Source: Dysgonomonas sp. 25
GTDB lineage: Bacteria; Bacteroidota; Bacteroidia; Bacteroidales; Dysgonomonadaceae
DNA: 51,583 bases
NCBI RefSeq assembly: GCF_010501075.1
Contig: NZ_QVMN01000014.1
Span: 1-51,583 of the forward strand
Reading direction: 5' to 3'
Part shown: positions 1 to 50,889 of the stretch, in pieces
Layout: each line of letters begins with the position of its first letter
Position numbering within the stretch: position 1 is the first letter of the stretch
The notes under the pieces: generated by a model
Told to the model about the DNA's origin: nothing
Database searches by the model: none
The model's input: the letters and a program-made list of their open reading frames with translations, nothing else
Position numbers and translations under genes: made by a program

Positions 1-71
1 TTTTTGTTGAGATTCTGCTTTTATATTGTAGGATACACTACTTCTTTTTCCGTCACCTGTCAAGTGACAGA
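1..71 (+). repeat. Left inverted repeat of element 1
   Basis: It is identical to the reverse complement of 416-486 over 71 bp. It contains the core with outer arm TTTCCGTCAC and spacer CTGTCAA. The window begins inside it, so its true outer end is unknown. Confidence 0.93.
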
Positions 72-364
72 ATTTACTTGTAGATGTCAGATAATTAGTA
101 AATTACAAACCTATGTTTCTTCTTGGGAAAACATACGGCAAAACAAAAAAGAGCCGAACAAACTTCTGAGAGATGTGTAATTGTTTCATCTTGTGCATAC
201 AAGAAAACATTTTGCGTTCGTTTAGTTACTATTTTTTGCATGACAAACATATAGTGTATTCATTTGTAGCATATTATGTTATCCAGTGTGGAATTGTTTG
301 TCATTTGCTTCAATGAAGAGAATTCAAAATGTATATTATATGATTGAATTTTAGACTCAAAAAA

Positions 365-396
365 TTGGGTCGATAAAAAATAAAAATGTATATTTG
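365..396 (+). promoter_or_regulatory. Promoter inside invertible element 1, ON orientation
   Basis: A -33-like TTGG (365-368) is followed after 20 nt by TATATTTG (389-396), a perfect match to the Bacteroidetes -7 consensus TAnnTTTG. Transcription would start near 403, run through the right inverted repeat and enter the gene at 506. After inversion it would point out of the window to the left. Confidence 0.75.
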
Positions 397-415
397 CCTC
401 TGTTATTAAGGCTCA

Positions 416-486
416 TCTGTCACTTGACAGGTGACGGAAAAAGAAGTAGTGTATCCTACAATATAAAAGCAGAATCTCAACAAAAA
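416..486 (-). repeat. Right inverted repeat of element 1
   Basis: It is the reverse complement of 1-71. Its core has spacer TTGACAG at 424-430 and outer arm GTGACGGAAA at 431-440. It lies in the 5' leader of the downstream gene, 19 bp before its ATG. Confidence 0.93.
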
Positions 487-505
487 TACAAATAATTCTT
501 ATTTT

Positions 506-1024
506 ATGGCCTCTATAATAGAAATCATTACCCAAGAAAAGACCAATACAGATGCAATTCATTTATATAAAGAAGGTCTATTTTGGAAAGCCTATCAACA
601 ATCAGCCTTCCGGATAGATTCGCAACCTTGTACAGCATACAAATTAATCAAAAAACACATCAAGGCCGTCTCCCATGAAGTGGTCTCTCTTGGCTTTCCC
701 TCACTAAATTTGACGAAACACTTTAGAGCAGAGCAAATCGAATACCTTGACGACCAGCATATCCGCATTCAAGATAAAGGCATTGAAGAATCGGAATATC
801 AAGATTGGTTTTCACAGATTCCTTTGTTCGTACCCAACCCGCCTAAACCCAAAGAACCGGAATACCTTACTCAAATCCATATATTCGAACCCACTCCCGA
901 AGCTAAAGCTTCGTTCTCTATCACGGATGAGATTGTCACTCGCTTACGCAACTTCCGTATCGAACAATCGACCCCTATGCAATGCATGCTTTTTCTTAGC
1001 CAGCTGCAAAAAGAATTACCATAA
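506..1024 (+). CDS. MutS N-terminal-domain-like protein, probable DGR accessory
   Basis: 172 aa, no signal peptide. Residues 16-35 (DAIHLYKEGLFWKAYQQSAF) resemble the start of MutS domain I, the mismatch-recognition domain, where the family has a G-D-F-Y-E-A-F motif. Here it reads G24-L-F26-W-K28-A-Y30: the base-stacking Phe is kept but the Glu of the Phe-X-Glu pair is Lys. No MutS core or ATPase domain follows. From memory, stand-alone MutS-like proteins have been noted near some Bacteroidetes DGRs, which fits the DGR that starts 2 kb downstream. It is the first gene after invertible promoter 1, with the recombinase gene 101 nt behind it. The family call is moderately sure; a role in mutagenic homing is inference. 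Confidence 0.6.
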   Translation: MASIIEIITQEKTNTDAIHLYKEGLFWKAYQQSAFRIDSQPCTAYKLIKKHIKAVSHEVVSLGFPSLNLTKHFRAEQIEYLDDQHIRIQDKGIEESEYQDWFSQIPLFVPNPPKPKEPEYLTQIHIFEPTPEAKASFSITDEIVTRLRNFRIEQSTPMQCMLFLSQLQKELP

Positions 1025-1051
1025 GGATGGTATCAGCAGACTAATTGCCTT

Positions 1052-1100
1052 GGGTTAGTACTACCTTCGTCCCTCGAAAAGTTAAAAACAGTACTAACCC
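1052..1100. repeat. 10-bp inverted repeat between MutS-like and recombinase genes
   Basis: GGGTTAGTAC (1052-1061) and GTACTAACCC (1091-1100) are perfect inverted copies around a 29-nt loop. They lie in the short gap between the two genes. The repeat could be an mRNA hairpin that tunes recombinase expression, or an operator. No T-run follows, so a simple terminator is less likely. Confidence 0.6.
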
Positions 1101-1125
1101 TTAAAAACAACAGAGAACCAACAAG

Positions 1126-2355
1126 ATGACAACGATCCATTTTTATTTGCAGCCATCGCTTCGTCCCAACCGGCCGGGCAGTATCCACCTACGCATCACC
1201 CACCGCCGGCAGACGCGGAGCATTGCCTTACCCATCAAGGTACACCCCTGCGATTGGGATGCTCGACGCGAATACAGCAACATCGAATCGATTAATAAAC
1301 AGCTGGACGAAAAGCGATTATTAACCGGACGGATTATCACCATTCTCTCCTCTCAAGGCGTTTACACAGCCGAGGATATAGCCCTGCGCTATCGTTGCCT
1401 GGCAAAAGGCAATAACTTACTCTCCTTCACCATGGAGCTATCCTCCATCTATATCCGGCGCAGGCAGGAGCGAACCGCGCGCGCCTATCTGACGGCTGCC
1501 GGGCGTCTTTGCCAATTCTGCCGGAACAAGAGTTTGCTCATTTCGCAAATCAACTCCTCGCTCATGATAGACTTCGAAAGACGGTTGCAGGACGAAGGCT
1601 TGACAGGCAACACCATCTCGTTTTACATGCGCAACCTGCGGGCGATATACAACAAGGCTGTGCAGATGCAACTAATCATCCCGCAGGAAGTTTCGCCTTT
1701 CAAGTATGTATTTACCGGTCGGGAGAAAACCATCAAACGAGCCTTGAGCAAAGACGAAGTCAACCGCTTGAACAATGCGAATATCCACGGAAATAAACAG
1801 CTTCGCTTTGCTCGTCAACTCTTTTTCTTCGGCTTCCATGCCAAAGGAATGAGCTTTGTGGATATGGCCTACCTGAAAAAGAGCGACTACAAAAACGGTA
1901 TTCTCCGCTACCGGAGAAAGAAAACGGGGCGCATCATTGAGGTGAAAGTGACCCAGCAGTTGCGTAAACTAATCGACTTTTTCGCACCCATGACCCGCGA
2001 AAGCGAATATCTTTTACCCATTATCACCAATCCCGAAAAAAATGAGCGCTTGCAATACGAAAGTGCCTTACGGTTGCAAAACAGCCGTCTGAAAACTCTC
2101 AGTAGACTTTCCAAGCTTACACATAAACTATCTACACATGTTTGTCGTCATACGTGGGCGAGCCTGGCCAAGCAAATCAATACGCCACTGGCCGTGATTA
2201 GCGAGAGCCTGGGGCATAGCGACGAGAAGACGACACAGATTTATCTGGCCTCGTTCGACCGCAAGATTTTAGATCGGGTGGGCGAACGAGTCAGTGATCT
2301 GATAACACACTTCCCCCCAACCAACAGCAGGGGAATTGAGCTGGCGCACCGATAA
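1126..2355 (+). CDS. Tyrosine site-specific recombinase (DNA invertase/integrase family)
   Basis: 409 aa: an N-terminal arm-binding region (about 1-85), a SAM-like core-binding domain (about 95-195) and a C-terminal catalytic domain. Visible catalytic residues are the H338-V-C-R341-H342 box, H364 in LGHSDEKTT and the nucleophile Y373 in QIYLAS. The box I region reads GFHAKGMSFVDM. From memory, Bacteroidales invertases such as Mpi/Tsr types usually have RGMSFVDM there, so Lys240 may replace the first catalytic Arg. The gene sits between two segments with invertase-type inverted repeats sharing the same 10-bp arms, so it is the best candidate for flipping both. It could instead be an integrase of the mobile element. 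Its transcription probably depends on element 1. Confidence 0.88.
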   Translation: MTTIHFYLQPSLRPNRPGSIHLRITHRRQTRSIALPIKVHPCDWDARREYSNIESINKQLDEKRLLTGRIITILSSQGVYTAEDIALRYRCLAKGNNLLSFTMELSSIYIRRRQERTARAYLTAAGRLCQFCRNKSLLISQINSSLMIDFERRLQDEGLTGNTISFYMRNLRAIYNKAVQMQLIIPQEVSPFKYVFTGREKTIKRALSKDEVNRLNNANIHGNKQLRFARQLFFFGFHAKGMSFVDMAYLKKSDYKNGILRYRRKKTGRIIEVKVTQQLRKLIDFFAPMTRESEYLLPIITNPEKNERLQYESALRLQNSRLKTLSRLSKLTHKLSTHVCRHTWASLAKQINTPLAVISESLGHSDEKTTQIYLASFDRKILDRVGERVSDLITHFPPTNSRGIELAHR

Positions 2356-2463
2356 GTCTACTCGAATAGACAAAATCACCTGATAATGATTGAACTGCAA
2401 CCCGAAAAGGCTGCGGTTAGGGCTTTTTGTACATACCAAAAACAACATTTGGAGCATTGGACT

Positions 2464-2484
2464 GTCCCCTTTGCTAAAGGGGAC
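2464..2484. repeat. Perfect 9-bp hairpin, dispersed CCCCT/AGGGG palindrome family
   Basis: GTCCCCTTT and AAAGGGGAC pair around the loop GCT. It is followed by a GGAGGGGTTGG stretch. The same kind of palindrome recurs in many gaps of this window and inside coding sequence at 15385-15690. It may end recombinase transcription, although no clear T-run follows. Confidence 0.6.
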
Positions 2485-2607
2485 GAGCGTAGCGGAGGGG
2501 TTGGAATCAGTTAACAGCTAAAAACAAAGTAATAGATGAAAACAGTATAAATAACAAAAAAAATAGCAAGAAAAACACCCCTCTTTGACGGTGAAATTTA
2601 CAGAAGA

Positions 2608-2977
2608 TTTCTGTCACTGATTAAGTGACGGAAATCTTATTAATAATTTGTATTTCAAATAATTATAGAATATACTTTACTTTTTGCAAAACATTTGTAA
2701 AAACAAAACTGATCTTAAACAATCAGCAAAAACGATTTAATTCCCTGATTATTGGCTATTTATGACATTATAAATAAAAGCTATACCTAAGAAAAATAAA
2801 AACAACGAATCAACTAATTGATATACAAGTTATTACCTTGATTCTGCAAAATATGCATATATCTCACCTTCTCTCAAAAAAAGGCTAATTACTTGATTGG
2901 TAATACTTGATATAGCAAAAAAAGTAGTATCTTTGCTTTTGTTTTTTCACGAACCATCACTTAATCAGTGACAGAAA
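2608..2977. other. Invertible promoter element 2 (predicted), upstream of DGR target
   Basis: 22-bp perfect inverted repeats lie at 2607-2628 and 2957-2978. Each contains outer arm TTTCTGTCAC, a 7-bp spacer (TGATTAA at 2618-2624; TTAATCA at 2961-2967) and a less conserved inner arm. The arms match those of element 1, but the spacer differs. The segment is AT-rich and noncoding, about the same size as element 1, and holds a promoter pointing at the target gene 97 bp beyond the right repeat. Inversion would turn the promoter back toward the 3' end of the recombinase gene and silence the target. Confidence 0.82.
2907..2935 (+). promoter_or_regulatory. Promoter inside invertible element 2, ON orientation
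   Basis: TTG at 2907-2909, 18 nt, then TATCTTTG at 2928-2935 (consensus TAnnTTTG). The expected start is near 2942, giving a leader of about 130 nt that contains the right inverted repeat and then the ATG at 3075. Confidence 0.75.
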
Positions 2978-3074
2978 TAAGCAAAATGTAAAATAGAAAG
3001 TAATAAAACACTTAAATAAAAGTACAAAATAGCCCCGGAACAATCAAATTACTATAAACTTAATCATAGATTTT

Positions 3075-5120
3075 ATGAAACGGAAATTTCTAACACTCAC
3101 ATTTTTTTGCACCTTGCTGCTCCTGAGTAACCAGGTAAATGCACAAGTAACCATTGGCAGCAGTAATCCGCCTGTCGGTGGCGCTTTATTAGACTTGAAA
3201 CAGCAAACTCCCGATGCAAACAACGTAACAGCATCGAAAGGTTTGGGACTGCCACGTGTAAAACTAACAGATTACGACCAACTTTTTCCGATGTTCGATG
3301 CCATAAGCGGAACTGATTATGTGAAAGGAGGTGACAGTTTTGATAAAGATACTCAAGATGCAGCGCATACCGGATTGGTTGTTTATCACGAAGATAAATG
3401 TACTATGACAGGTAAAGGAGTATATGTGTGGGTAGGCACTGAATGGCAGCCCTTACACAAAAAGAATACTTTTGTTCCCACTCTTAGCCAAACCTACTTT
3501 GATATTCCCAGCGGAAGGGATGCACGGGGAACGACTATTCCATCGGAGACATTAACTGTAACCTGGGAAGGTGGCGCAACTCCTACATGGGCGTTGCAGA
3601 ATACCAGTGGCTTGACACAGCTTCCTCTGACATCACCTGCTGCTACGGGCACAGTCGGTGCTTCGCCCTATGTGATGACTATTACGGCTACGGCAATGAC
3701 AGCAGCCGAAACACCGGCAAGCAATCCATGGAAGAGCAAGGAACGCAAGATAGCCTTTACTAACTTAGTTACCGAATGCGGACAGCAGGATTATGTAACA
3801 ATCAACCAGACCAACTATGCCTTAAAGGTTAACAACCAATTCAGCAATAGCCAGATTACCTACACTACTGCCTCAAGCGGTACATTTGCTGTACAGGGCA
3901 ATGCTGCGTGGAAAGCCACTCTTGCCAGCGATCCTAACAATGTGATAGCTTCCACAACCCCTGCTCTACCGACAACAGGTGGCGAAGACAAGAAAGACGG
4001 CACCACTGTAACACTTAGCCCGAACTTTTCGTACACTACCAATGCTGCTTCCAAGTATCACACAGCTGATATCACCTTTCAAGATACGGCAACAGTAAAA
4101 CGCTTCGATGACATCACTGTTACTATTCTCAATTGCAGCAATACAAACGAACCTACTCTCGAACAATGGGCTGAACGCCTTGGCTTTACTACGGCCGAGA
4201 TAACGGCTGTAAAGAACGGTACTGCACCCAACGATGGTGGTGTATCCTCAGATATCAATAACAGCTATCAGCTGCATCGTGACCAAGATGGAAATCTTTT
4301 TATCTCTTCTGAGTTTGGCAATGATGCTGCCAGCAGTGATGGTAAGAACCGTTGGATGATCACTAACCTTGCTGCTCGCAGCTTTGCTGCTGATGCCGGA
4401 CGCACGGGGGATGAAGGGGCTGTTGTTATCGCTCTACCGGGCAGCCCCTCTGCCGCCAGCGACTATGCCAATCCTCAATGGTGCTACCCACAGACCCCAA
4501 CTACTGCCACCACTTTCACTAACAACCCACGCATCGGGCTACTCTATAATTGGGCTGCAGCTACTAATAGTAAAGGGCGTAAAAACAGTTCGGGTGTAAC
4601 GAACACTACCGGGCAAGGCGTATGGAATGATGGCGAGGGTGGTAGTGGTCAAACTCCCCAGACAAACAAGATACAGGGTATTTGCCCTAACGGTTGGCAC
4701 TTACCCAGCGACAGGGAATTTACTGACCTGGAGCAGATAATCAGCGACAACACGGCTACCTACTCCGGTATACCCGATGCCGGCACAGGTATCACTGTAG
4801 GAGCTACAAACTGGCGTGGAACTACTCACGGTACAGGAATGAAAGACCCTTGTCCCGCACCTAACCAAACCACATATCAGAGCAACGGTGCCTCTAATGT
4901 GATGTCTCCGCACCTTGCCGGTGGCTTCAATATTATCCTTGCGGGCTACGCCAACAGTGGCTCGGCCGGCGGTTACGGCACGCACGCCTACTTGTGGTCG
5001 GCTGGCGGTAACAGTACCAACACCGCGTGGTATCGGACCTTCATCAACAGTTACGCGCAGGTGGCCCGTTTCTACCCCAATAGGCGCCACTTGTTCTCCG
5101 TGCGCTGTAAGAAAGACTAA
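3075..5120 (+). CDS. DGR target: secreted FISUMP-domain protein with hypervariable C-terminus
   Basis: 681 aa. Residues 1-24 form a signal peptide ending in VNAQ. Residues 25 to about 130 are a module (VTIGS, GALLDLK, GLGLPRVKL) shared with the three LRR proteins of this window. About 135-350 look like two beta-sandwich (BACON/Ig-like) domains. About 400-681 form a FISUMP (Fibrobacter succinogenes major paralogous domain) region with GLLYNWAAA and GICPNGWHLPSDREF, a fold used for display in many DGR targets. Codons 622-680 are the variable repeat; 15 residues there differ from the template-encoded version, most of them Asn in the template. The 26-nt 3' end is invariant. The protein is probably a surface binding protein whose ligand specificity is diversified. 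Expression should depend on invertible element 2. The ligand is unknown. Confidence 0.92.
   Translation: MKRKFLTLTFFCTLLLLSNQVNAQVTIGSSNPPVGGALLDLKQQTPDANNVTASKGLGLPRVKLTDYDQLFPMFDAISGTDYVKGGDSFDKDTQDAAHTGLVVYHEDKCTMTGKGVYVWVGTEWQPLHKKNTFVPTLSQTYFDIPSGRDARGTTIPSETLTVTWEGGATPTWALQNTSGLTQLPLTSPAATGTVGASPYVMTITATAMTAAETPASNPWKSKERKIAFTNLVTECGQQDYVTINQTNYALKVNNQFSNSQITYTTASSGTFAVQGNAAWKATLASDPNNVIASTTPALPTTGGEDKKDGTTVTLSPNFSYTTNAASKYHTADITFQDTATVKRFDDITVTILNCSNTNEPTLEQWAERLGFTTAEITAVKNGTAPNDGGVSSDINNSYQLHRDQDGNLFISSEFGNDAASSDGKNRWMITNLAARSFAADAGRTGDEGAVVIALPGSPSAASDYANPQWCYPQTPTTATTFTNNPRIGLLYNWAAATNSKGRKNSSGVTNTTGQGVWNDGEGGSGQTPQTNKIQGICPNGWHLPSDREFTDLEQIISDNTATYSGIPDAGTGITVGATNWRGTTHGTGMKDPCPAPNQTTYQSNGASNVMSPHLAGGFNIILAGYANSGSAGGYGTHAYLWSAGGNSTNTAWYRTFINSYAQVARFYPNRRHLFSVRCKKD
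4938..5114 (+). repeat. DGR variable repeat (VR)
   Basis: It aligns to the template repeat 6227-6403 over 177 nt without gaps. By hand count there are 20 differences, every one at a TR adenine (to G, C or T), out of about 53 adenines. None of the roughly 124 non-adenine positions changed. The last 26 nt are identical, as expected for the site where mutagenic homing starts. VR ends two codons before the stop of the target gene. Confidence 0.97.
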
Positions 5121-5154
5121 TGTGTGGTCTATTGGTCAATTTGACTATTCTACC

Positions 5155-5278
5155 ATTTAGCCGCCGCCGTAAGGCACGGCAGGCTGAGTGGCGGTGTAGC
5201 AAGCCCCGCGTTAGCAGGCTTGCTCACCTGACGCGAAGCGTCGATTTTTTTTTGAAAAATGGGATTTTTCAAAAAAAA
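5155..5278 (+). terminator. Hairpin cluster and terminator just after VR
   Basis: A GCCGT/ACGGC hairpin lies near 5167-5180. AGCAAGCC (5198-5205) pairs perfectly with GGCTTGCT (5217-5224). GACGC/GCGTC (5230-5242, loop GAA) is followed by nine T. A further 15-bp perfect stem (5246-5260 with 5264-5278, loop GGG) follows at once. The last two look like an intrinsic terminator for the target gene. In phage BPP-1 a hairpin behind VR helps target homing, so the upstream stems may do that here (inference). Confidence 0.75.
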
Positions 5279-5514
5279 CGGTCCAATCGGCGGAAGGAAA
5301 GAGGAAAATTCAACTTCAGCCAACAAATATAACGCTCTTGTACACTTGTATACTCTTGAACTAATAAACTCAAAGAAAAATGCTTGTGTTAATGTTAGGG
5401 GTGTTGCGGGCTGCGACAGCCGTCAGACCCTCCAGCCCCACCGGTCCTCCCTCAGGGGAGGAATAGGGGGTTGTTTTTTTAGATTTTTAATTTTTGAATT
5501 AACGTATTAGATTT
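5279..5514. other. Noncoding gap before avd with dispersed repeat pieces
   Basis: No credible gene. Positions 5376-5401 (ATGCTTGTGTTAATGT core) closely match the minus strand of the segments upstream of two LRR genes (about 30935-30965 and 51535-51565). Positions 5447-5475 carry a CCTCCCTCAGGGGAGG palindrome of the common repeat family. Confidence 0.6.
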
Positions 5515-5853
5515 ATGGCAACATACGACGAACTAATGGTATATAAACACACCTACGACCTGACGGTAGAGCTTATGAACCTGACTAAGAAGATGGACAA
5601 GGGTTATAAGTTTACGTTGGGCGAACGCATCAATGAGGCTTGTGTGGAGATGCTGCTTTGTATTTATCGCATCAATATATCGAAGCACGACAGAGAGACG
5701 TATTTTGCCCGTTCGCGGGAACAGATAGAGCTGATTCGTTTGCTGTTACGCTTGATGAAAGATTTAAGATTAATTGCCATTCGTCGCTTCTCGGTACTCA
5801 ACGAGTATGTAGAGAGCATTTCGAAACAGTTGACAGGGTGGAGCAGAAGTTAA
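5515..5853 (+). CDS. avd: Avd-like DGR accessory protein (four-helix bundle)
   Basis: 112 aa, all-helical, with basic residues throughout (for example KHTYDLTVELMNLTKKMDKGYKF split over helices 1-2). It belongs to the S23/four-helix-bundle family that includes Avd. Avd forms a pentameric barrel, binds the reverse transcriptase and template RNA, and is needed for adenine-mutagenic cDNA synthesis in studied DGRs. Position and length fit: it lies between the target gene and the template repeat, and Avd proteins are usually about 110-130 aa. The gene is separated from the target by a terminator, so it probably has its own promoter together with TR and RT. The family is confident; the Avd role comes from context. 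Confidence 0.88.
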   Translation: MATYDELMVYKHTYDLTVELMNLTKKMDKGYKFTLGERINEACVEMLLCIYRINISKHDRETYFARSREQIELIRLLLRLMKDLRLIAIRRFSVLNEYVESISKQLTGWSRS

Positions 5854-6226
5854 TTAACCAATATGCCAATGAACCAATGAGTTGAGACATAAGTGGCTTT
5901 GCTCAATTAGCATATTGGCACATTCGCTAATTTTTACATTAATAATACAGGATGGTTGTTTGTAACCGTCAGAGCTGGATACTCGCTACGGCAGATTCGG
6001 GCGTACACATTTATTTCAGTAGCCCACTATCGCGGTATTTAGGTATCGTTGTAGTAATCAAAGATGCGCTCTCTTTCGTAGATTGTTGCATATCCAAGGA
6101 GACTTGATCTTATTCCGTTAGATGGTATTTCGGCGGGATGTATGCGATGATTGGTCAGAGGGTTTTAAGATTCCATTTTGGAGTCTTAATTAAGCACAAA
6201 TTCAGTGGCTACTATACATTTTGGAG
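5854..6226 (+). ncRNA. 5' part of DGR template RNA (predicted)
   Basis: No coding sequence. An 11-bp hairpin with one G-U pair (6165-6175 with 6179-6189, loop TTT) lies 37 nt before TR. The early part (5866-5935) contains the dispersed ATATGCCAAT/ATTAGCATATTGG repeat type. In known DGRs the template RNA extends well beyond TR on both sides and binds Avd and RT. The RNA ends cannot be set from sequence. Confidence 0.55.
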
Positions 6227-6403
6227 CTTGCGGGCAACGCCAACAATGGCTCGGCCAACAATTACGGCACGAACGCCTACTTGTGGTCGGCTGGCGGTAA
6301 CAGTACCAACAACGCGTGGTATCGGAACTTCAACAACAGTAACGCGCAGGTGAACCGTAACAACACCAATAGGAACAACTTGTTCTCCGTGCGCTGTAAG
6401 AAA
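6227..6403 (+). repeat. DGR template repeat (TR)
   Basis: A 177-nt noncoding copy of VR, rich in AAC codons when read in the target frame, so adenine mutation hits Asn positions without creating stop codons easily. It ends 150 nt before the RT start codon. An open frame runs through it but is only the template's echo of the target frame, not a gene. Confidence 0.97.
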
Positions 6404-6553
6404 TAAAAAAGTGTTACAAGAACATCCTGTTATAATTTAATATGAAAATATGCAGATTAGCATATTTGAAAATCAGCAAATTCATAGGGTAAAGCCATTA
6501 GCATGACAACTCATTTGCTCATATGCTAATTATCAAATATTCAAATTTAAAAG
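6404..6553 (+). ncRNA. 3' part of DGR template RNA, with hairpin
   Basis: A perfect 8-bp stem, AAATATGC (6446-6453) with GCATATTT (6460-6467), lies 43 nt after TR. About 140 nt of RNA downstream of TR is essential for cDNA priming in BPP-1, and this gap has that length. The assignment is by analogy. Confidence 0.5.
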
Positions 6554-7744
6554 ATGGATAACGTTTACGGATTCAATACAAGTGAGTGTCGCAAGTTTAG
6601 GAATGATTTGTTTGTAGCCTATTACGATTGCCGGCGCAACAAACGGAATACGGCTAATGCATTGAGATTTGAGGTTAATTTCGAAGATAATATCCATGAA
6701 CTTTGGCGCGATGTATTGGAGGGAAGATACGAAATAGGGCGTTCGTGCGCTTTCATAGTGCATAAGCCTGTGAAGCGTGAGATATTTGCCGCCGATTTTC
6801 GCGACCGTGTGATCCATCATTACATCATAGCTAAACTGGAAGCGTTTTTCGAGCGAATGTTCATCTACGACAGTTACAGTTGCCGCAAGGATAAGGGAAC
6901 TCATTTTGCGGTAAAGCGAATGGAGCATTTTATGCGCTCGTGTTCGGATAATTATACACGCGATTGTTATGTGTTGAAATTGGATATTCAGGGCTTTTTT
7001 ATGAGTGTCCGCAAAGAAATACTGTATCACAAAGTGGAGAAAGTGATAGAGAAATACTATCGCGGCTTTGATAAGCAGCTATTGAAAAATCTGTCAGAAA
7101 AGGTAATCATGAACAATCCTGTTCCCCACTGTGTGATAAAGGGTAGTAGAAATGATTGGGATGGTTTGCCCGAAAGCAAATCCTTGTTTCGCAGTGGCGG
7201 ACATATAGGGCTTCCGATAGGCAATCTGACGAGCCAGATGTTTGCCAATTTGTATCTGAACGATTTTGACCATTATGTCAAGCGCGAGTTGAAAGTGAAG
7301 TATTATGGCCGGTATGTAGACGATTGTGCTTTTATGGCAGAAAGTAAAGGCGCACTTCGGCAAATAATAAAGCAAATACGTTCTTATTTACAAAGTAGTT
7401 TGGGGCTGACAATTCATCCCCGTAAGATTTATCTGCAACACTACACGAAAGGGCTGACATTTACAGGTATCATTATCAAGCCGCATCGGCAATATATTGG
7501 CAAACGTATCTGCCGGAGTATGAATCGTGTTTTTCGAAATGACTATCGTGCTATTTATAGCGAGAACGAAGAAGATTTTAAGAAAAATGGTGAACGCTGG
7601 TTGGCATCGGTCAATTCGTATTTGGGTATTGGGAGGCATTATGACAGTTATCGTTTTCGGAAGAAGTTGTGTGATATGGTTGCCGATAATCCGATAGGTA
7701 TTCGTTTTAACGAGAGTTATTGTGTGGTGAAACAAGAAGAGTAA
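6554..7744 (+). CDS. DGR reverse transcriptase
   Basis: 396 aa, RVT_1 family. The active-site motif is Y254-V-D-D257. The motif 4 region reads GLPIGNLTSQ (219-228), the form typical of DGR enzymes, whereas retroviral and group II RTs have QG...SP. There is no maturase or endonuclease domain, so it is neither a group II intron nor a retron protein. It copies the TR RNA with random incorporation opposite adenines, and the cDNA replaces VR in the target gene. It is the last gene of the DGR cassette. The RNA-binding partner would be the Avd protein 0.7 kb upstream. Length is normal for the family and the gene looks intact. Confidence 0.97.
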   Translation: MDNVYGFNTSECRKFRNDLFVAYYDCRRNKRNTANALRFEVNFEDNIHELWRDVLEGRYEIGRSCAFIVHKPVKREIFAADFRDRVIHHYIIAKLEAFFERMFIYDSYSCRKDKGTHFAVKRMEHFMRSCSDNYTRDCYVLKLDIQGFFMSVRKEILYHKVEKVIEKYYRGFDKQLLKNLSEKVIMNNPVPHCVIKGSRNDWDGLPESKSLFRSGGHIGLPIGNLTSQMFANLYLNDFDHYVKRELKVKYYGRYVDDCAFMAESKGALRQIIKQIRSYLQSSLGLTIHPRKIYLQHYTKGLTFTGIIIKPHRQYIGKRICRSMNRVFRNDYRAIYSENEEDFKKNGERWLASVNSYLGIGRHYDSYRFRKKLCDMVADNPIGIRFNESYCVVKQEE

Positions 7745-7925
7745 ATAAAAAGAAAATAAGGCTGTTAGTTACAATAAAAGTGCATTCTTTAAGAGTACAG
7801 CCCTTGATTTTGAGATGTATCGGTTAACGAAACCGGTGCATTTTTTTCAGTTTTGAATAAAGACCATCGCAAAATGGAACAAATGTGTTCCTTTTCAATT
7901 AGTATTAACTTAAAATAATTTGCGT

Positions 7926-8765
7926 ATGACAAATTTTATTGAAAAACTGACGGGGGAAGTGCGTATGACACTTTTGACAATCGAAATGGAAGAAGCGGAT
8001 ATTTTGCAACGTTCCGAACGTTCGATTGAGGTATTGGAACAAGTTTTTGTCGATTTGAAAGATTTTACGATTGGGTATACTTTTCCGTGCAAGGAAGAGG
8101 AAGTCCAATTTTTCAAAGAGACTAAACCGAATCTCTTTAGCATCCTGATTTATTACAGAAAATTGTATAACATCGAAATTAATCGCCCAAAAGGAGGCGA
8201 AGAGGAACTACAAAAATATCTGAAATGGCAACTTTGTTTGCTGAAAGATTATTTTGAACGCAACAGCGATTTTTACAGGTATTATCGTTCCGGCGATACA
8301 CGCATGGATGAATATTATTTTTTGCGACAAAAACCGACTATTCACATGACGATGGAGAGTTTCTATTTCGAGCGCGATCCTCGCTTTTCCACACCTGCCG
8401 ATTTTAAGATGGCAAAGTTGATTGGGAATGACAGGGTGGAAGAATATTTATGTGAAGAGTTGCGGCGATTGAAAACAAAAAACGAAGGAGAAGCTTTGTC
8501 CCTGAAAGAGAAATTGACATGGACATCTCCAAAAGTTTTTCTTATTGAATTGATTTATTTGTTATTCTGGGTTGGCGTTTTCAACCATGGAAAAGCAACA
8601 CTAAAAGAAATATGCTCTTATTTCGAAACTATTTACAATATTGATTTGGGAGCTAATGTTTCCGGTAGTTTTGCTAAGATGCAGGATCGTAAAAACAGAA
8701 GTCCGTTTTTAGACCTTTTGAGAACGACTTTCTCTCAGAAAATGAATAAATTTGATAAAAAATAA
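7926..8765 (+). CDS. rteC: RteC-like regulator of element excision
   Basis: 279 aa from the ATG at 7926; an in-frame TTG at 7920 is less likely. The sequence matches the RteC family throughout, for example KYLKWQLCLLKDYFERNSDF in the middle and a C-terminal helical region with LIYLLFWVGVFNHGKA and IYNIDLG. In CTnDOT, RteC activates the promoter of the excision operon (xis2c-xis2d-orf3-exc). Here the next genes are a Xis2d-like HTH, an Orf3-like DUF3945 protein and an Exc-like topoisomerase III, so the same circuit is likely. The RteA/RteB two-component genes that feed RteC in CTnDOT are not in the window. Note that it directly follows the DGR. Confidence 0.9.
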   Translation: MTNFIEKLTGEVRMTLLTIEMEEADILQRSERSIEVLEQVFVDLKDFTIGYTFPCKEEEVQFFKETKPNLFSILIYYRKLYNIEINRPKGGEEELQKYLKWQLCLLKDYFERNSDFYRYYRSGDTRMDEYYFLRQKPTIHMTMESFYFERDPRFSTPADFKMAKLIGNDRVEEYLCEELRRLKTKNEGEALSLKEKLTWTSPKVFLIELIYLLFWVGVFNHGKATLKEICSYFETIYNIDLGANVSGSFAKMQDRKNRSPFLDLLRTTFSQKMNKFDKK

Positions 8766-8785
8766 TATATTGAAATGAAATAGAA

Positions 8786-8993
8786 GAAATAGAATCAGTA
8801 CAAATTGTACGCTTCATCTCACATGAAATAGAAAACTGGTAATTTTTGAATAAACAAACGAGAGGAAACGTAATGACCTGTGCTATGCAATATAGCGTGG
8901 ATCGTTATTCCCGTTTGTTTGGGTATACCAGTACCTCTATTTGGGGAGATTATGAATCCACGCTATTTTTTCTGATCTATTTCATTTTTTTTT
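8786..8993 (+). ncRNA. Structured RNA or regulatory region with pseudoknot topology
   Basis: An outer stem pairs 8786-8798 with 8972-8983 (one bulge) and is followed by a T-run. Inside it, AAACAAACG (8852-8860) pairs with CGTTTGTTT (8912-8920), and ATAGCGTGGAT (8892-8902) pairs with ATCCACGCTAT (8956-8966), which runs into five T. The two inner helices interleave (A-B-A'-B'), so they form a pseudoknot or exclude each other. CTnDOT encodes a small RNA, RteR, near rteC; this may be an analogue or an attenuator. The stems are visible; the function is inferred. Confidence 0.6.
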
Positions 8994-9173
8994 AGGTTAG
9001 CAAACCAATTTCGTTTTCTCAAAAAACGATATTTTATAGGATTGTAATACACAGTAAATCAACCTTATTTCATTTTGTTTTTAAAATACCTCACCCTACT
9101 ATCCCTCGAATAAGCCTTCTCTTTCAGAACTTTGTACCGCTGATTTACGAATATTCAATAATTCTTAAAACCG

Positions 9174-9467
9174 ATGGAAGTAGCAGACAATATATTCGAT
9201 GACGGGATGAAAGGACTTCACAAACGCCTGGATGAAATCTTTTTTTTACTCAAAGCAAGAAATCGCCTGAATGGTAAAACCATTCTTGACAATCAGGACT
9301 TATGTCTGTTATTGAATCTTAGTAAACGTACGCTGCGGCGTTACAGAGCCACAGGTATATTACCCTACTTCCAGATTGGAGGTAAGCCATTTTATTACGA
9401 ATCGGATGTAGAAGAGTTTATCAGAAGAAACCAAGAGAATGATATTCCAGCTTCAGAAGAAGAATAG
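9174..9467 (+). CDS. Helix-turn-helix protein, Xis2d/excisionase-like
   Basis: 97 aa. Residues 1-30 are a short helix (coiled coil-like). Residues 36-88 form a MerR/excisionase-type HTH_17 domain (DNQDLCLLLNLSKRTLRRYR, then a wing with YFQIGGKPFYYESDVEEFIRR). This is the usual small HTH protein of Bacteroidales conjugative elements, whose CTnDOT relative Xis2d is required with Xis2c for excision. It lies between rteC and the Orf3/Exc-like genes, as in CTnDOT. A separate xis2c was not found in the window. A GAACTTTG at 9128-9135 could be a -7 box. DNA binding is well supported; the excision role comes from context. Confidence 0.85.
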   Translation: MEVADNIFDDGMKGLHKRLDEIFFLLKARNRLNGKTILDNQDLCLLLNLSKRTLRRYRATGILPYFQIGGKPFYYESDVEEFIRRNQENDIPASEEE

Positions 9468-9796: not shown

Positions 9797-11197
9797 ATGA
9801 ATGAAAATCTAAAAGACCACAAAGAGCAGACTGATGTTCTGCTGGTCACAGAAAAAGGCGATAACAATCCTAAAGTAGTCGCAGGACTGAACGAAGACGG
9901 AAGCCCTAAAACCGTCAAACCCGAACAGAAGAACGAACCCGAATTTCTGAAAATCGACAAACACAGCGATGCTTTGGAAAATTTCATGTCCAACTTTCTC
10001 AAACAGTGTAAGGAACCGACACATTTTCATTTTTTCAGAGTACCCATGAATGCAATAGATAATATTGCTAATGTATTGAGTGATATGCTCAAAGACCCTG
10101 AAAACCCATCCAACAAAAAATTTATGGATGAAATTCGTGTCCTACCCGAAGCCTTTGCCAAAAAGCCCTATCAGGCAATTGATGAATCCCGCATCGATTG
10201 GTCACAATTCGAAAAGTTCGGTATCACTAAAGAGCAGATTGATAAAAAAACGTTGGATAAAATGCTCAATTGGCAAAAAACGTCGACCCTTATCCCCATC
10301 AAAACCGAAGTTGGTGATTCCATTATCCGTACTGATGCACGATTGTCGTTGAGAGAAAATGATGAAGGCAAGTTGAACCTTGTAATACATGCCATTCGTA
10401 AAGAACCGCAACTCGAAGGCTTTGTCTATGGAACCCGACTGACCGAAGAAGATAAACAAAACCTTCGCCAGACAGGTCATGCAGGGCGATTAGTAGAGAT
10501 AGAACCTGTTAAAGATCAAAAGATGATGGCATTTCTATCTATTGACAAGTTGACTAATGAATTGGTGGCCGTTCGTGCCGATAGGATTAAAATTCCGAAT
10601 GAAATCAAAGGCGTTACCCTTGATGACCAACAAAAGAAAGATTTGTCGGAAGGGAAAGCCGTCTATCTCGAAGGCATGAAATCCAAGAACGACAAAGAGT
10701 TCAATGCTACTGTTCAGATCAATGCCGACCGCCGAAGTCTGGAGTTCCGATTCGATAATTCTCCAAAGCAAGGGCAAAAGCAGTCTAAACAACAATCTCA
10801 ATCAGGAGAAACACAGTTCCGTATTCCAACTAAACTACTTGGAGCAGAGCTTTCCGAACAGCAACAAAAAGACCTAAAGGAACACAAAACCATCTATGTT
10901 ACGGGTATGACCGATAAAAAAGGTGAACCCTTCAATGCTTACATCAAAGTCAATGTAGAAAAGGAAAAACTCGACTTTTTCAGATGGAATCCCGACAAAG
11001 CGAAGAAACAAGGAGCGGAAGTCAAGCCCGATAATGCTTCCAAGACACAGGTTGCCGTTAACTCCGAAGGAAAGGCCAATGAAGCGACTAAGGATATCAA
11101 AGAACCTTTGAAACAAGGACAGACCGCTCCGACTGCCAAACAGGAAGAGAAGAAGGAAGAAAAGAAAGTAGTGAAATCCAAAGGAATGAAATTTTAA
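9797..11197 (+). CDS. DUF4099/DUF3945 protein (CTnDOT Orf3-like)
   Basis: 466 aa, hydrophilic and Lys/Glu-rich, no signal or membrane segment. About residues 120-185 match the DUF4099 type (IDWSQFEKFGITKEQIDKKT). About 225-400 contain repeated DUF3945-like units with the recurring pattern GVTLDDQQKKDLSEGKAVYL and a later copy GAELSEQQQKDLKEHKTIYV. The C-terminal 60 residues are low-complexity and end in KSKGMKF. Such proteins sit next to topoisomerase III in Bacteroidales conjugative elements. In CTnDOT the corresponding Orf3 has no essential excision role that I recall. The biochemical function is unknown. Confidence 0.85.
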   Translation: MNENLKDHKEQTDVLLVTEKGDNNPKVVAGLNEDGSPKTVKPEQKNEPEFLKIDKHSDALENFMSNFLKQCKEPTHFHFFRVPMNAIDNIANVLSDMLKDPENPSNKKFMDEIRVLPEAFAKKPYQAIDESRIDWSQFEKFGITKEQIDKKTLDKMLNWQKTSTLIPIKTEVGDSIIRTDARLSLRENDEGKLNLVIHAIRKEPQLEGFVYGTRLTEEDKQNLRQTGHAGRLVEIEPVKDQKMMAFLSIDKLTNELVAVRADRIKIPNEIKGVTLDDQQKKDLSEGKAVYLEGMKSKNDKEFNATVQINADRRSLEFRFDNSPKQGQKQSKQQSQSGETQFRIPTKLLGAELSEQQQKDLKEHKTIYVTGMTDKKGEPFNAYIKVNVEKEKLDFFRWNPDKAKKQGAEVKPDNASKTQVAVNSEGKANEATKDIKEPLKQGQTAPTAKQEEKKEEKKVVKSKGMKF

Positions 11198-11371
11198 TAT
11201 GCCAATATGTCAATTCGAAAACAACGTTCGCCGAAGCGAAGGCGAGGCAAATAAGCAAATTGGCGCAAAGCGACAAGAATTAGTAGCTAAGACATTCGCT
11301 AATTATCTAATCTTCAAATTTGCTAATTGAATTGGCACATCGGCATATCATCACATTAAAAAATTAAAATC

Positions 11372-13597
11372 ATGATAGCAATTATAGCAGAAAAACCTTC
11401 GGTAGCACGCGAAATCGCCACTATCGTGGGTGCAAACGATAAAAAAGATGGTTACCTCAGTGGCAATAATTATTTAGTAACATGGGCATTAGGACACTTG
11501 GTGCAGCTCGCCATGCCCGAAGAATATGGAGCAAGCAGCTTTGTTCGGGAACAACTACCTATTACCCCTCCATCTTTCAAACTCGTCCCCCGACAAATAA
11601 GAGCAGACAAAGGGATGAAATCAGACCCCGGAGCATTGAAACAACTCAAAGTCATCCGCTCAGTCTTCGAGCAGTGCGACAGCATTATTGTTGCTACCGA
11701 TGCAGGAAGAGAAGGAGAACTGATATTTCGCTACATTTATACCTATCTGAATTGTCAAAAACCTTTCGACAGGTTATGGATCAGTAGTCTTACCGAAAAA
11801 GCTATCCGTGAAGGCTTGCAAAATCTCAAAGACGGAGCATCTTATAACAAACTCTATGATGCAGCCAAAGCTCGTAGCCAAGCCGATTGGCTGGTAGGTA
11901 TCAATGCCTCACAAGCGATAACCATTGCTGCCGGACAAGGCATATTCTCATTGGGACGAGTGCAAACACCTACGTTGGCGATGGTTTGCTCCCGTTATCT
12001 GGAGTATACCAATTTCACACCGATTCCTTATTGGGACTTGCGTCTGGATACTTTTTCGGGTAATAAAACCTTTTCAGCCATTACTAAAGAGCGGATTGAC
12101 TCTCGCTCAATCGCTAAAGAACTGTATGAGAAACAGAAGCAGCAAAAGACCGTTATTGTGCAAAGTGTGGAGAAAAAGGAAGTATCGCAAGAACCACCCT
12201 TGCTTTACGATTTGACTACCTTGCAAAAGGAAGCCAACAGTAAATATGGATTCTCTGCCGACAAGGCCTTGTCTATTGCTCAGAAACTGTATGAATCGAA
12301 ATTTATTACCTATCCACGGACAGGCAGCCGGTATATTTCTGATGATGTATTTATGGAAGTTCCCGAATTGATTCGCAAACTGATAAAATATGAATCCTTT
12401 TCAAATTATGCTGAAAAGCTTTCAGATATGAATCTCAATATCCGAAGCGTAGACAGCAAGAAAGTAACCGATCATCATGCCTTATTGGTTACAGGGCAAC
12501 TGCCGAATACTATCAGTTATGATGAACGGAAAATCTACGACATGATAGCCGGACGGATGTTAGAAGCATTTTCGGGAAAATGTATCAAAGACCAAACAAC
12601 CGTCACATTAAATTGCGCAGATACGCTTTATGTAGTCAAGGGATCGGTTACCAAAGTGGCTGGCTGGCGAAAAGTCTGGAACGAGCAAGGGGAAGGTAAA
12701 GACGAAAACAAAGAACTTCCAATTTTGGCAGAAGGGCAAGAGCTTCATGTTTCCAATATACAACTATTGGAGAAACTGACCAAGCCGAAGCCATTACACA
12801 CCGAGAGCAGTTTATTAAGTTCGATGGAGAGTGCCGGTAAAGAATTGGATAACGAAGAACAACGTTTGGCAATGAAAATACCGACTAAGCGAGAGCAAAG
12901 TGAGCTCGCTCACAATTTGCCGAGTGAGAGGTATTTATCTAAAGAATGCGGTATCGGTACGCCCGCCACACGAGCCTCTATTATCGAAACCTTATTCTCA
13001 CGGGATTATATGCGGCGAGAACCGACAACAAGTCGAGAGCAATCATGTTTACATGAATTGCCGAGACGCGAAGGAGGAAGGCGTAGCCAAAAAAAGTCGC
13101 TTATTCCTACCGAAAAAGGATTGGCCGTGTACCATGCTGTCAAAGACAAACGCATTGCCGATGTGGAGATGACAGGTATGTGGGAAAACACTTTTGCTAA
13201 GATAGAATCGGGAGAAGCCGATGCCGATAATTTTACCAAAGGTATAGAAATCTATGCTTCGCAAATCACGGAAGAATTACTCAATGTCAAGTTGAACTTG
13301 CCCCAAATACAAACTGCCACTTGTCCCAAATGTGGTAAACAGGTTAACCTCTATCCCAAAGTAGCCAAATGTTCCGACGCCGAATGTGGCCTGATGGTAT
13401 TTACCTCGTTATGTGGAAAAACACTGTCTGACGATATTCTGCAAACTCTTTTATCAGGAAAGCAAACAAGTGTTGTTAAAGGCTTCAAATCTAAAGCCGG
13501 AAAATGTTTCGATGCTACTCTGATACTTGATGAAGACTACAAAGTGAAGTTTGTATTTGACAACAACCCAAAGGGACTTTCTAAAAAGAAATTGTAG
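11372..13597 (+). CDS. topB: DNA topoisomerase III (TopB/Exc-like)
   Basis: 741 aa type IA topoisomerase. An N-terminal Toprim domain starts at IAEKPSVAREIA and contains TDAGREGELIFRY. The catalytic Tyr lies in ITYPRTGSRYI (near 320). CGIGTPATRA and the C-terminal KKSLIPTEKGLAVY blocks follow. A zinc-finger-like CPKCG...CSDAECG lies near residues 650-670. It relaxes and decatenates DNA through single-strand passage. Its CTnDOT homologue Exc belongs to the excision operon. Two in-frame insertions of 22 and about 23 codons interrupt conserved blocks (see 12878-12943 and 13022-13090). They keep the frame, so the enzyme may still work, but this is not shown. Confidence 0.95.
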   Translation: MIAIIAEKPSVAREIATIVGANDKKDGYLSGNNYLVTWALGHLVQLAMPEEYGASSFVREQLPITPPSFKLVPRQIRADKGMKSDPGALKQLKVIRSVFEQCDSIIVATDAGREGELIFRYIYTYLNCQKPFDRLWISSLTEKAIREGLQNLKDGASYNKLYDAAKARSQADWLVGINASQAITIAAGQGIFSLGRVQTPTLAMVCSRYLEYTNFTPIPYWDLRLDTFSGNKTFSAITKERIDSRSIAKELYEKQKQQKTVIVQSVEKKEVSQEPPLLYDLTTLQKEANSKYGFSADKALSIAQKLYESKFITYPRTGSRYISDDVFMEVPELIRKLIKYESFSNYAEKLSDMNLNIRSVDSKKVTDHHALLVTGQLPNTISYDERKIYDMIAGRMLEAFSGKCIKDQTTVTLNCADTLYVVKGSVTKVAGWRKVWNEQGEGKDENKELPILAEGQELHVSNIQLLEKLTKPKPLHTESSLLSSMESAGKELDNEEQRLAMKIPTKREQSELAHNLPSERYLSKECGIGTPATRASIIETLFSRDYMRREPTTSREQSCLHELPRREGGRRSQKKSLIPTEKGLAVYHAVKDKRIADVEMTGMWENTFAKIESGEADADNFTKGIEIYASQITEELLNVKLNLPQIQTATCPKCGKQVNLYPKVAKCSDAECGLMVFTSLCGKTLSDDILQTLLSGKQTSVVKGFKSKAGKCFDATLILDEDYKVKFVFDNNPKGLSKKKL
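12878..12943 (+). repeat. In-frame palindromic insertion 1 in topB
   Basis: 66 nt (22 codons, PTKREQSELAHNLPSER core) lie between LAMK and ECGIGTPATRA, blocks that I recall as adjacent in related enzymes. It contains a GTGAG/CTCAC hairpin within a CGAGAGCAA...TTGCCGAG frame. It shares its framework with the insertion at 13022. Confidence 0.65.
13022..13090 (+). repeat. In-frame palindromic insertion 2 in topB
   Basis: About 69 nt (PTTSREQSCLHELPRREGG core) lie between YMRRE and KKSLIPTEKG. It contains the perfect palindrome TCATGT-TT-ACATGA. CGAGAGCAA and ATTGCCGAG are shared with the first insertion, so both are copies of one palindromic element that keeps an open frame. Confidence 0.65.
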
Positions 13598-29300: not shown

Positions 29301-30479
29301 TTACGGACAAGTAGGCTTGGTTACAGAAGGATCTATTGTCGTCGTGCCCGGGAAATATTGGGGAGTTACATACCACCAAGATATATTCGGACAATAATTC
29401 GGATGAAGCTTAAATTTATTCACCTCCGCCTGTATCAATTGATTGTCATCACAATACAGCTTCGTTAAGGCCGTGTTGGTCGACACATCCAAGCTCGTCA
29501 GTTGGTTAGCTCGGCAAACCAACTGAGTTAGAGCCATGTTAGCCGAGACATCCAAACCCGTCAACTGGTTATAACCGCAATCCAGATATATTAAAGCCAT
29601 GTTGGCAGATATGTTTAAACTCGTCAGTTGGTTAAGAGTGCAATTCAGCCTCGTTAGAGCTGTATTGGCCGATACATCCAAAGTAGTCAGTTGGTTATCA
29701 TTGCAATACAGCGTTATTAAGGCCGTATTGGCCGATACATCCAAAGTAGTCAGTTGGTTATTTTGGCAATACAGTATCGTTAAGGCCATATTGGACGACA
29801 CATCCAAGCTCATTAGTGGGTTAGAACCACAAGACAACTCTGTCAAATCCATATTGGACGACACATCCAAAGTAGTCAGTTGGTTAAGACCGCAATCCAG
29901 ATATGTCAAAGCATACAGTTTACCGATTCCGGTAGCAAAGGTTAGTTTTTTGTTAAAAACGTTCAATTGCGTTGCTCTTTTTTCGCCGCATATAGTCGTC
30001 CAGGTAACCCCGGCAAAATTTGCGGGGTCGCCACTCAAATTCCATCCCAGCGTATTGCCCGGGTTGGCATTGTAGAGGTCTTTCAGGGCTTGCACATCCT
30101 CGGCATAGCTGCCCTTTTTGGTGATTTGGCTTCCCGACAGTTGCACCCATGTCGCTCCATCCCACACGTATAATCCCTTAGAGAAACACATTGTTTCTTT
30201 GGTGTTGTACACTATCAGTCCGGTGTGGTTCAGGGCATCTGCTCCCGTTATTTCGGGGGCTGTTCCTATCTTCAGTTTGCTCAAATCCGAAAGTTCCACC
30301 TTCGGCAATCCAAGCCCGTGCTTTGCCGTTGCATTATTGGCATCGGGGGCATGCTCTTTCAGGTCTAATAACGCACCGTCAACGGGTGGCTCTGCACTGC
30401 CGATGGTTACCTGTGCCTGCAAACTAATTGCTGTAAATAAGGCTAATATGATAATAGCCTGTGTCAAAGTTCTTTTCAT
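29301..30479 (-). CDS. Secreted leucine-rich-repeat protein, 8 repeats
   Basis: 392 aa. The signal peptide ends near LQAQ. An N-terminal module (VTIGSAEPPVDGALLDLKEH, GLGLPKVELSDL) is shared with the DGR target and the other two LRR proteins. About residues 135-195 resemble an LRR N-cap (DVQALKDLYNANPGNTLGWN, then a CGEKR motif as in LRRNT_2). Eight 21-residue repeats follow, of form LTxLxCxxNQLTTLDVSANTA. The C-terminus (VNKFKLHPNYCPNISWW...KPTCP) is common to all three paralogues. Probably a surface-exposed binding protein; the ligand is unknown. The nucleotide repeats are nearly identical, so slippage could change copy number. Confidence 0.85.
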   Translation of the reverse strand: MKRTLTQAIIILALFTAISLQAQVTIGSAEPPVDGALLDLKEHAPDANNATAKHGLGLPKVELSDLSKLKIGTAPEITGADALNHTGLIVYNTKETMCFSKGLYVWDGATWVQLSGSQITKKGSYAEDVQALKDLYNANPGNTLGWNLSGDPANFAGVTWTTICGEKRATQLNVFNKKLTFATGIGKLYALTYLDCGLNQLTTLDVSSNMDLTELSCGSNPLMSLDVSSNMALTILYCQNNQLTTLDVSANTALITLYCNDNQLTTLDVSANTALTRLNCTLNQLTSLNISANMALIYLDCGYNQLTGLDVSANMALTQLVCRANQLTSLDVSTNTALTKLYCDDNQLIQAEVNKFKLHPNYCPNISWWYVTPQYFPGTTTIDPSVTKPTCP

Positions 30480-30884
30480 GTTGTAAAAAAAAATAAAAGC
30501 CCCCTCTGCCTCCCCCGCAGGGGGAGAAAAGGAAGCCGGGTGAATAAATAGTTGTATTGGTAAGCCCCTCCTTTCCTCCCCGTGGGGGAGGCTAAGAGAA
30601 GGATATATTTTCGTTTTTTATTGAATGGTGGTGCAAACCTATTTCCCCCTCTGGGGGATAAAGGGGGCCGGTTATTGTCATCCCGAGTGGATACGAGGGA
30701 TCTCTTGCCAACTTGGGTGTATGGGGCAATAAATATTGCCCCGTATATATCGATTTGCGGGCGCACACGCAGGTGCGCCCCTACAAGGGCTCTATTGTTG
30801 ATAGAAGAGGATGATATACTTCCCCCTTTGGGGGATTGAGGGGGCCTGCTGTTGACTGAATAGTGCTGCTCACTGTCAACTGAA

Positions 30885-30962
30885 AAATCCCGCTTCTCCT
30901 CACGGAGAAGACGGGACGAAATGGGGGTTCTTCCCCTGACATTAACACAAGCATATTTTTTA
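30885..30962 (-). ncRNA. Candidate small RNA ending in a terminator-like hairpin
   Basis: On the minus strand a conserved head (ATGCTTGTGTTAATGT) is followed by a short GGGG/CCCC stem and then a strong stem, CCCG plus CTTCTCC (30889-30899) with GGAGAAG and CGGG (30904-30915), running into five T. The whole unit recurs at about 51484-51565, and its head alone at 5376-5401. It may be a small RNA or only a conserved repeat; no promoter was identified. Confidence 0.35.
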
Positions 30963-31144
30963 GTAGACGAGTTACAAGTTACGAGTGACGAGTAGGGGCA
31001 AAGCCGTACAGCAGTTCGCAAGTTATCTCTTGTAACTCGTAACTGTGCGAAGCACGAAGTAACTGCCCGTAGGGCGAAGTAACTTTTCTTTGAAAATTCT
31101 TCTCTAAAACCTTGGATTAATCCGAAATATTGACTATACTTCGC

Positions 31145-50718: not shown

Positions 50719-50889
50719 GTTATATAAAGAATTAACCACCTCCCCCTGCCCCCTCCAACAGAGGGGGAGCAAGAAAAGATGAAGTGAATAATAAGTTTGA
50801 TTGTATTTTAGCCCTACCAAACCTCCCCGTGTGGGAGGCTAAGAGAAGGATATATTTTCGTTTTTTGTTGAATGGTGGCGTAAACCCAT

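Follow-up and report, generated by a model that had tools for sequence, protein, structure and literature searches.

Two putative invertible promoters, probably served by one tyrosine recombinase, beside a diversity-generating retroelement in a probable conjugative-element cassette of Dysgonomonas sp. 25

Introduction

Bacteroidales have two main programmed means of varying their surface, namely diversity-generating retroelements (DGRs) and promoter inversion. Can a single locus join them, with one recombinase gating both the display of a hypermutated protein and its own expression? The question is raised by one end of contig C5 of Dysgonomonas sp. 25 (source genome 3.74 Mb, 58 contigs), all of which, 51,583 bp, was analysed as the window. 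On the plus strand the window carries, in order, inverted-repeat element 1, a gene for a 172-aa protein, a tyrosine recombinase gene, inverted-repeat element 2 and a DGR made up of target, Avd, template repeat (TR) and reverse transcriptase (RT) (Table 1). The original prediction had listed two promoter-bearing inverted-repeat segments, the recombinase between them and a complete DGR after them, and each of these parts was confirmed. Taken as one reading, the two elements are probably invertible promoters served by the one recombinase, in a cassette that would be mobile as the cargo of a conjugative element.

Element 1 in two orientations

Element 1 is present in both orientations within the source assembly, on contigs C5 and C7. 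Its repeat, delimited from contig C7, is exact over 20 nt; an inverted repeat does lie at the positions originally given for it (57-63 and 424-430), but these are the centres of the 20-nt arms and not their extent. A perfect palindrome of 71 nt spans 1-71/416-486 of the window and is a contig-end effect, because window positions 1-51 are the reverse complement of 436-486. The true upstream flank of element 1 is the end of mobC, on contig C7 (L013). There, the contig end reads mobC end, hairpin terminator, repeat, reverse complement of window 72-415, repeat and 51 nt identical to window 436-486. The start of C5 is the reverse complement of this end junction of C7, after which the sequence crosses the segment and reaches the other junction. 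Of the four junctions predicted for a mixed population, three occur in the assembly. Flank bases keep to their own flank while the segment swaps sides, and the crossover would therefore lie inside the 20-nt repeat.

The hairpin terminator after mobC is strong (-20.3 kcal/mol; z -6.95). Element 1 faces the operon formed by 506-1024 and the recombinase gene, and the earlier suggestion that it may control the invertase is supported to that extent.

Recombinase, recognition sites and element 2

Within the source genome, which holds 13 recombinase matches at E up to 1e-15, the subfamily of the cassette recombinase has no other strong member (721 bits; next best, 94). The cassette recombinase keeps H338, R341, H364, Y373 and K266. 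The site pattern RTCACYNNNNNRGTGAC has six forward and five reverse matches genome-wide, a count that includes the second copy of element 1 on C7, and all of them lie within elements 1 and 2; the reversed pattern, used as a control, has two and two genome matches.

The recombinase family was surveyed at 51 loci, window included. The base was 52 distinct places at E up to 1e-100, of which two at contig edges were left out, and L109 (E 1.1e-88) was added. An inverted repeat of at least 15 nt starts no more than 400 bp downstream of the recombinase gene at 35 of the 51 loci (0.1 in shuffles). A script scored 21 of these 35 repeats as having a CACTT-AAGTG core and 12 as TCTT-AAGA-like, one of the latter (L215) being of the CACTT-AAGTG type by eye. 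An inverted repeat within 1 kb upstream of the gene was found at 1 of 46 loci, namely, the window. Element 2 therefore stands at the usual position for the family, and element 1 is the exceptional one. Both elements thus have a recombinase nearby that is cognate by family association and whose catalysis is predicted.

In the repeat pairs inspected, both arms of a pair share one spacer between half-sites, and spacers often differ from locus to locus. The spacers of elements 1 and 2 differ (CTGTCAA and TGATTAA), so recombination should stay between the two arms of an element and should not join arms across the recombinase gene. The arms of element 2 are 25 nt long and 96% complementary, and their longest exact match is 22 nt, versus a maximum of 14 nt in 500 shuffles. 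Element 2 is presumed to flip as well, given the downstream inverted repeats at 35 of 51 family loci and two further genomes with the same set of recombinase, repeat core and DGR.

In viral contigs, a search with the single recombinase sequence found no relatives, and a search with the recombinase alignment found five distant relatives, none with a DGR. A scan of genome contigs for the recombinase yielded six distant loci from Bacteroidota, and tblastn gave no DGR gene match at any of them.

Promoters and the genes behind them

Each element interior holds one Bacteroides-type promoter (TTG-N-TAnnTTTG) directed to the genes (P1 in element 1 and P2 in element 2), and both lie 18 to 19 nt from the right arm of their own element. 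In both elements, therefore, a consensus promoter is bounded by inverted repeats, as expected of invertible promoters in Bacteroidales. P1 and P2 are the only full consensus matches on the plus strand of positions 1-8000; the minus strand has one, at 6542-6576. With the strong terminator after mobC, no full-consensus promoter other than P1 was seen for 506-2355. A scan for E. coli-type Sigma-70 promoters was uninformative (20 found versus 15.8 expected).

A hand tally of box direction, made post hoc, covered 35 recombinase-linked elements. A TAnnTTTG box lies within 45 nt of one end and points outward in 26 of them. In 24 it is directed to the recombinase, which leaves the operon OFF, and in 2 to the operon. 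The two operon-directed boxes are both DGR linked (window element 2 and L120), and the third DGR-linked element (L085) is OFF.

The first gene behind P1, 506-1024, has no Pfam, NCBIfam or PDB profile match. It had been called MutS-like; its structure model (mean predicted local distance difference test score, 87) gave no Foldseek match at E up to 0.001 and MutS-beta chains only at E 0.9 to 1.7, and kinship with MutS is not established. What was established instead is membership of a DGR-associated family, which we take to be the one called MSL in the DGR literature. At 15 of 37 other RT loci, a member of this accessory family is found no more than 1.4 kb from the RT; L015, which is outside the annotated set, and four stretches replaced by longer versions are not part of this count. 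The family is also present at 33 of 87 viral-contig RT loci, and it often stands directly before Avd. In the window the gene lies 5.5 kb from the RT, ahead of the recombinase instead. In genome G322, a pair of accessory gene and Avd (L066 7731-8641; G322:C5 26105) lies about 18 kb from the RT, which has neither of the two.

The DGR and its target

The DGR is complete and has the expected signature, because target, Avd, TR and RT are all present and the differences between TR and variable repeat (VR) fall at adenines. Within 4938-5114 this holds for 20 of 20 differences; over the 188-nt match reported by the tool, 23 of 24 differences are at TR adenines, the last four positions being located at and beyond the end of the coding repeat. 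Avd also matches NCBIfam DivGenRetAVD (E 6.6e-15), below the cut-off of that model, and the nearest relatives of the RT in other genomes likewise adjoin Avd.

FISUMP is the sole domain of the target above the Pfam and NCBIfam cut-offs. No fimbrillin or Mfa domain was found with these profiles, and the target is therefore not assigned to the type V pilus tips. By eye, three other open reading frames (ORFs) of the window (29301-30479, 35820-36806 and 49354-50820) share the target's N-terminal motif, AQVTIGS..P..GALLDLK, after which they continue as repeat proteins.

Downstream of the VR in two genomes, that of the window and G036 (L119), a GCGAAGC hairpin precedes a T run and GAAAAATGGGATT. Since a similar hairpin and downstream tract follow the VR in G036, the one that separates target and Avd in the window could represent a DGR element rather than a terminator.

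Related loci with recombinase and DGR

Conservation of the repeat core beside other DGRs had been set beforehand as a test of the prediction. The same core does recur between a recombinase and a complete DGR in genomes G036 (L085/L119) and G018 (L086/L120), and the prediction was not refuted by this test. Both loci have the order recombinase, inverted-repeat element, surface-protein operon with DGR target(s), accessory gene, Avd, TR and RT, and in both the RT is followed by RteC and a helix-turn-helix (HTH) protein, as in the window. The recombinases are 43% (G036) and 41% (G018) identical to that of the window over the alignment. All 16 TR/VR differences in G036 and 25 of 26 in G018 fall at A, and a further target in G018 carries another copy of the repeat that has diverged more. 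The window, G036 and G018 share conjugative-element genes and are thus not independent.

The DGR-linked segment of G018 is inverted relative to two homologous segments in the same genome (69% over 962 nt and 68% over 300 nt): a -7-like box lies near the end that adjoins the operon in the DGR-linked copy, but near the end that adjoins the recombinase in the two homologues. The element in G036 has a full promoter directed away from the operon. Elements at DGR loci are therefore seen in both states, across genomes. Invertible segments of about 1.2 kb with an internal gene of the AraC-family type were observed at L120, L206 and L209, the family call resting on Pfam for the L086/L120 copy and on sequence similarity for L206 and L209.

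A recombinase lies within 10 kb of the RT, on the same strand, at 5 of 13 RT loci (the window, G036, G018, G322 and G451), the 13 being the window and 12 loci with at least 9 kb of upstream sequence. For rough comparison, 72 recombinase matches at E up to 1e-15 were counted in 12 of these genomes, which together span about 42 Mb. At G451 (L109) and G322 (L105), as in the window, the recombinase is upstream of a surface operon that ends in a DGR RT, and the operon is of the DUF3575/Mfa-like fimbrial type. L109, however, has no core-type inverted repeat, and L105 has a recombinase of another branch and another repeat core. L105 was rejected as a complete composite, as no TR/VR was found there. 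Locus L228 of G473, which has a recombinase, an inverted repeat, an accessory gene and an RT on one contig, was rejected as a composite because an ORF on the opposite strand intervenes and the RT is truncated where the contig stops. A survey of viral-contig DGR RTs covered 92 loci, 87 of them with an RT and 9 with an RT and a distant recombinase match. The original prediction named no precedent for its arrangement. The succession of recombinase, invertible promoter, surface operon and DGR does recur, and what is unique to the window in this sample is the element before the recombinase.

The elements may have been inherited with a phase-variable surface module that a DGR joined later, in which case switching and mutation would be coupled no further than by shared transcription of the target. 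G018 has eight strong relatives of the recombinase and two DGR RT matches, and the relatives examined there mostly adjoin surface-protein-like operons without an RT in the examined stretch, as such a history predicts. It leaves unexplained, however, why accessory gene and recombinase share an operon behind element 1. This history is a real possibility, at somewhat less than even chances.

Proposed mechanism

In the mechanism proposed, the recombinase would act on CTGTCAC(T)..AGTGACAG sites and invert both elements. Element 2 would turn the secreted FISUMP target ON and OFF, the target being made when P2 is ON, and Avd, TR and RT are perhaps switched along with it. Element 1 would do the same for the operon of accessory gene and recombinase, both products being made when P1 is ON, and the recombinase would thereby control its own supply. 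Element 1 in the OFF state should cut this supply, because of the mobC terminator upstream and because 1-8000 contains no other full-consensus plus-strand promoter ahead of the operon. The initial reading of ON/OFF switching combined with targeted hypermutation is supported in part, by the two orientations of element 1, the occurrence of the recombinase family at promoter-bearing repeats and the recurrence of the core. On that reading, mutation might meet selection in ON cells alone.

A more specific two-switch logic can be put forward only tentatively and is rather doubtful: element 1 ON would supply accessory protein and invertase, and element 2 ON would supply target, Avd, template and RT. 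If so, cells with both elements ON would keep switching and mutating, while those with element 1 OFF would lack the invertase, and the state of element 2 and the target variant would be frozen. The cassette would then alternate between searching and locked modes and be carried between hosts by the conjugative element.

Several observations weigh against two promoters inverted by the cassette enzyme. Each promoter match is weak alone, because 11.6% and 10.7% of the shuffled interiors of elements 1 and 2, respectively, contain one by chance. At the level of the family, 16 of the 51 loci have no downstream inverted repeat (3 of these span <600 bp), and 2 of the 35 repeats (L109 and L232) carry neither core. 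None of the nine viral contigs with an RT and a distant recombinase has an inverted repeat of at least 16 nt. A terminator-like GACGCGAAGCGTC hairpin with a T run separates target from Avd. The fourth junction of element 1, upstream flank joined to the non-inverted segment, is absent from the assembly, element 2 is seen in one orientation in this one assembly, and the presumed first catalytic Arg of the recombinase is a Lys (HAKGM, versus HARGM/YARGM in two relatives).

The structure of C5 and C7 could in principle be an assembly error at the 20-nt repeat, element 1 then being a fixed inverted repeat. Both contigs do end at the palindromic repeat. Each, however, continues for 51 nt of unique flank past the 20-nt repeat, and to assemble such a structure in error would take an overlap of about 20 nt; this explanation is judged very improbable. 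Alternatively, only element 1 may be active, with element 2 a fixed or decayed relic, the target constitutively ON and the DGR simply located beside an ordinary phase switch. The single orientation and the imperfect arms of element 2 (25 nt, 96%) fit a relic, whereas its exact match of 22 nt that spans the entire core, its placement as in 35 of 51 relatives and a promoter-to-arm distance equal to that of element 1 do not, and a relic is considered unlikely. Finally, another recombinase of the genome or of the conjugative element might perform the inversions, the cassette recombinase serving some other function. The 13 recombinase matches in the genome provide candidates, and the Lys substitution points the same way, but the cassette enzyme alone belongs to the core-paired subfamily and its sites occur nowhere else in the genome; the involvement of another enzyme is held to be distinctly unlikely. 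Inversion of both promoters by the cassette recombinase is therefore retained as the probable reading.

Comparison with known systems

Invertible promoters ahead of surface operons and DGRs on surface proteins are both known from Bacteroidales, as described in PMC12632263 and PMC11892184. Among invertons, the capsule of B. fragilis is one of the examples in PMC12632263. As in the invertons of PMC11892184, the promoters of the window lie between inverted repeats, beside a tyrosine recombinase and upstream of a surface-protein operon. That paper describes invertases near invertons as generally non-regulatable, their genes usually lying out of reach of the inverton's promoter, with one possible exception (group 145); element 1 is an exception of this kind, as it points into the invertase operon. 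A further difference from Bacteroidales invertons is that the gene behind element 2 is a DGR target.

For DGRs of Bacteroides that act on type V pilin tips, PMC12632263 cites Macadangdang et al., and the window resembles these in that its Bacteroidales DGR would diversify a surface adhesin-like protein. The window target differs in having a FISUMP domain and no fimbrillin domain match. Horizontal transfer of Bacteroides DGRs is reportedly described in the abstract of that pilin-tip study. In the E. coli fim switch, FimE is orientation dependent, and switch orientation feeds back on recombinase supply, as is proposed for the window. In fim, however, the recombinase gene stands beside the switch, feedback runs through the transcript, and there is no DGR.

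A phase-variable surface operon with a DGR on a conjugative element is thus of a known kind. The wiring is new in that a putative invertase and a DGR accessory gene stand behind their own flipping promoter, for which no priority is claimed: in the portions of literature compared, which did not include the main Bacteroides DGR study, sources naming both DGRs and invertible promoters treat them apart, and absence from print is not established by this. If one recombinase gates both the display of a hypermutated protein and itself, selection on variants, mutation rate and lock-in of winners become experimentally separable, and would be so in a mobile cassette. In addition, the 35 pairs of recombinase and site offer a testable rule for matching invertase to promoter.

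Conjugative-element context and other features

The RT is followed on the plus strand by genes for RteC, an excisionase-like HTH protein, a DUF3945 protein and a topoisomerase. MobB and MobC, both above the NCBIfam cut-offs, are encoded on contig C7 of the source genome, so that mobilisation genes and RteC, as expected of an RteC/Mob-type Bacteroidales conjugative element, are both present. RteC and the NCBIfam Bacteroid models for MobB and MobC also point to Bacteroidales as the host order. Further transfer genes were recognised by eye only. A plasmid search for close DNA relatives of window positions 1-9000 gave no match.

Table 1. Features of the cassette and of the genes that follow it (window coordinates)
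Feature	Position	Strand	Basis or remark
Contig-end stretch	1..51		Reverse complement of 436-486; downstream flank via inverted junction, not true upstream flank
Element 1, left repeat arm	52..71		20 nt, exact
Element 1, invertible segment, 344 bp	72..415		Inverted copy at end of contig C7
Promoter P1 (TTG-N21-TATATTTG), in element 1, toward 506-2355	365..396	+	Consensus match
Element 1, right repeat arm	416..435		20 nt, exact
DGR accessory family gene, 172 aa	506..1024	+	Family association with RT loci; structure model
Tyrosine recombinase, 409 aa, putative promoter invertase	1126..2355	+	Pfam Phage_integrase, Phage_int_SAM_5, Arm-DNA-bind_5
Element 2, left repeat arm	2607..2631		25 nt
Element 2, presumed invertible segment, 322 bp	2632..2953		Repeat arms; recombinase-family position
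Promoter P2 (TTG-N18-TATCTTTG), in element 2, toward DGR target	2907..2935	+	Consensus match
Element 2, right repeat arm	2954..2978		25 nt
DGR target, 681 aa, apparent signal peptide (by eye), C-terminal FISUMP domain	3075..5120	+	Pfam/NCBIfam
Variable repeat (VR)	4938..5114	+	TR/VR comparison
Hairpin and T run between target and Avd, terminator-like or DGR cis element	5229..5265	+	Hairpin at 5229-5243
Avd accessory protein	5515..5853	+	Pfam bAvd above cut-off
Template repeat (TR)	6227..6403	+	TR/VR comparison
DGR reverse transcriptase	6554..7744	+	RVT_1 profile; IGLPIGNLTSQ and YVDD in sequence
RteC, conjugative element regulator	7926..8765	+	Pfam profile
HTH_17 protein, excisionase-like	9174..9467	+	Pfam and NCBIfam profiles
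DUF3945/DUF4099 protein and topoisomerase, conjugative element	9797..13597	+	Pfam profile

Elsewhere in the window, a low-complexity, coding-like sequence (NNRPPLSPRGGN...) is repeated at 30476-31021 and 50732-51583.

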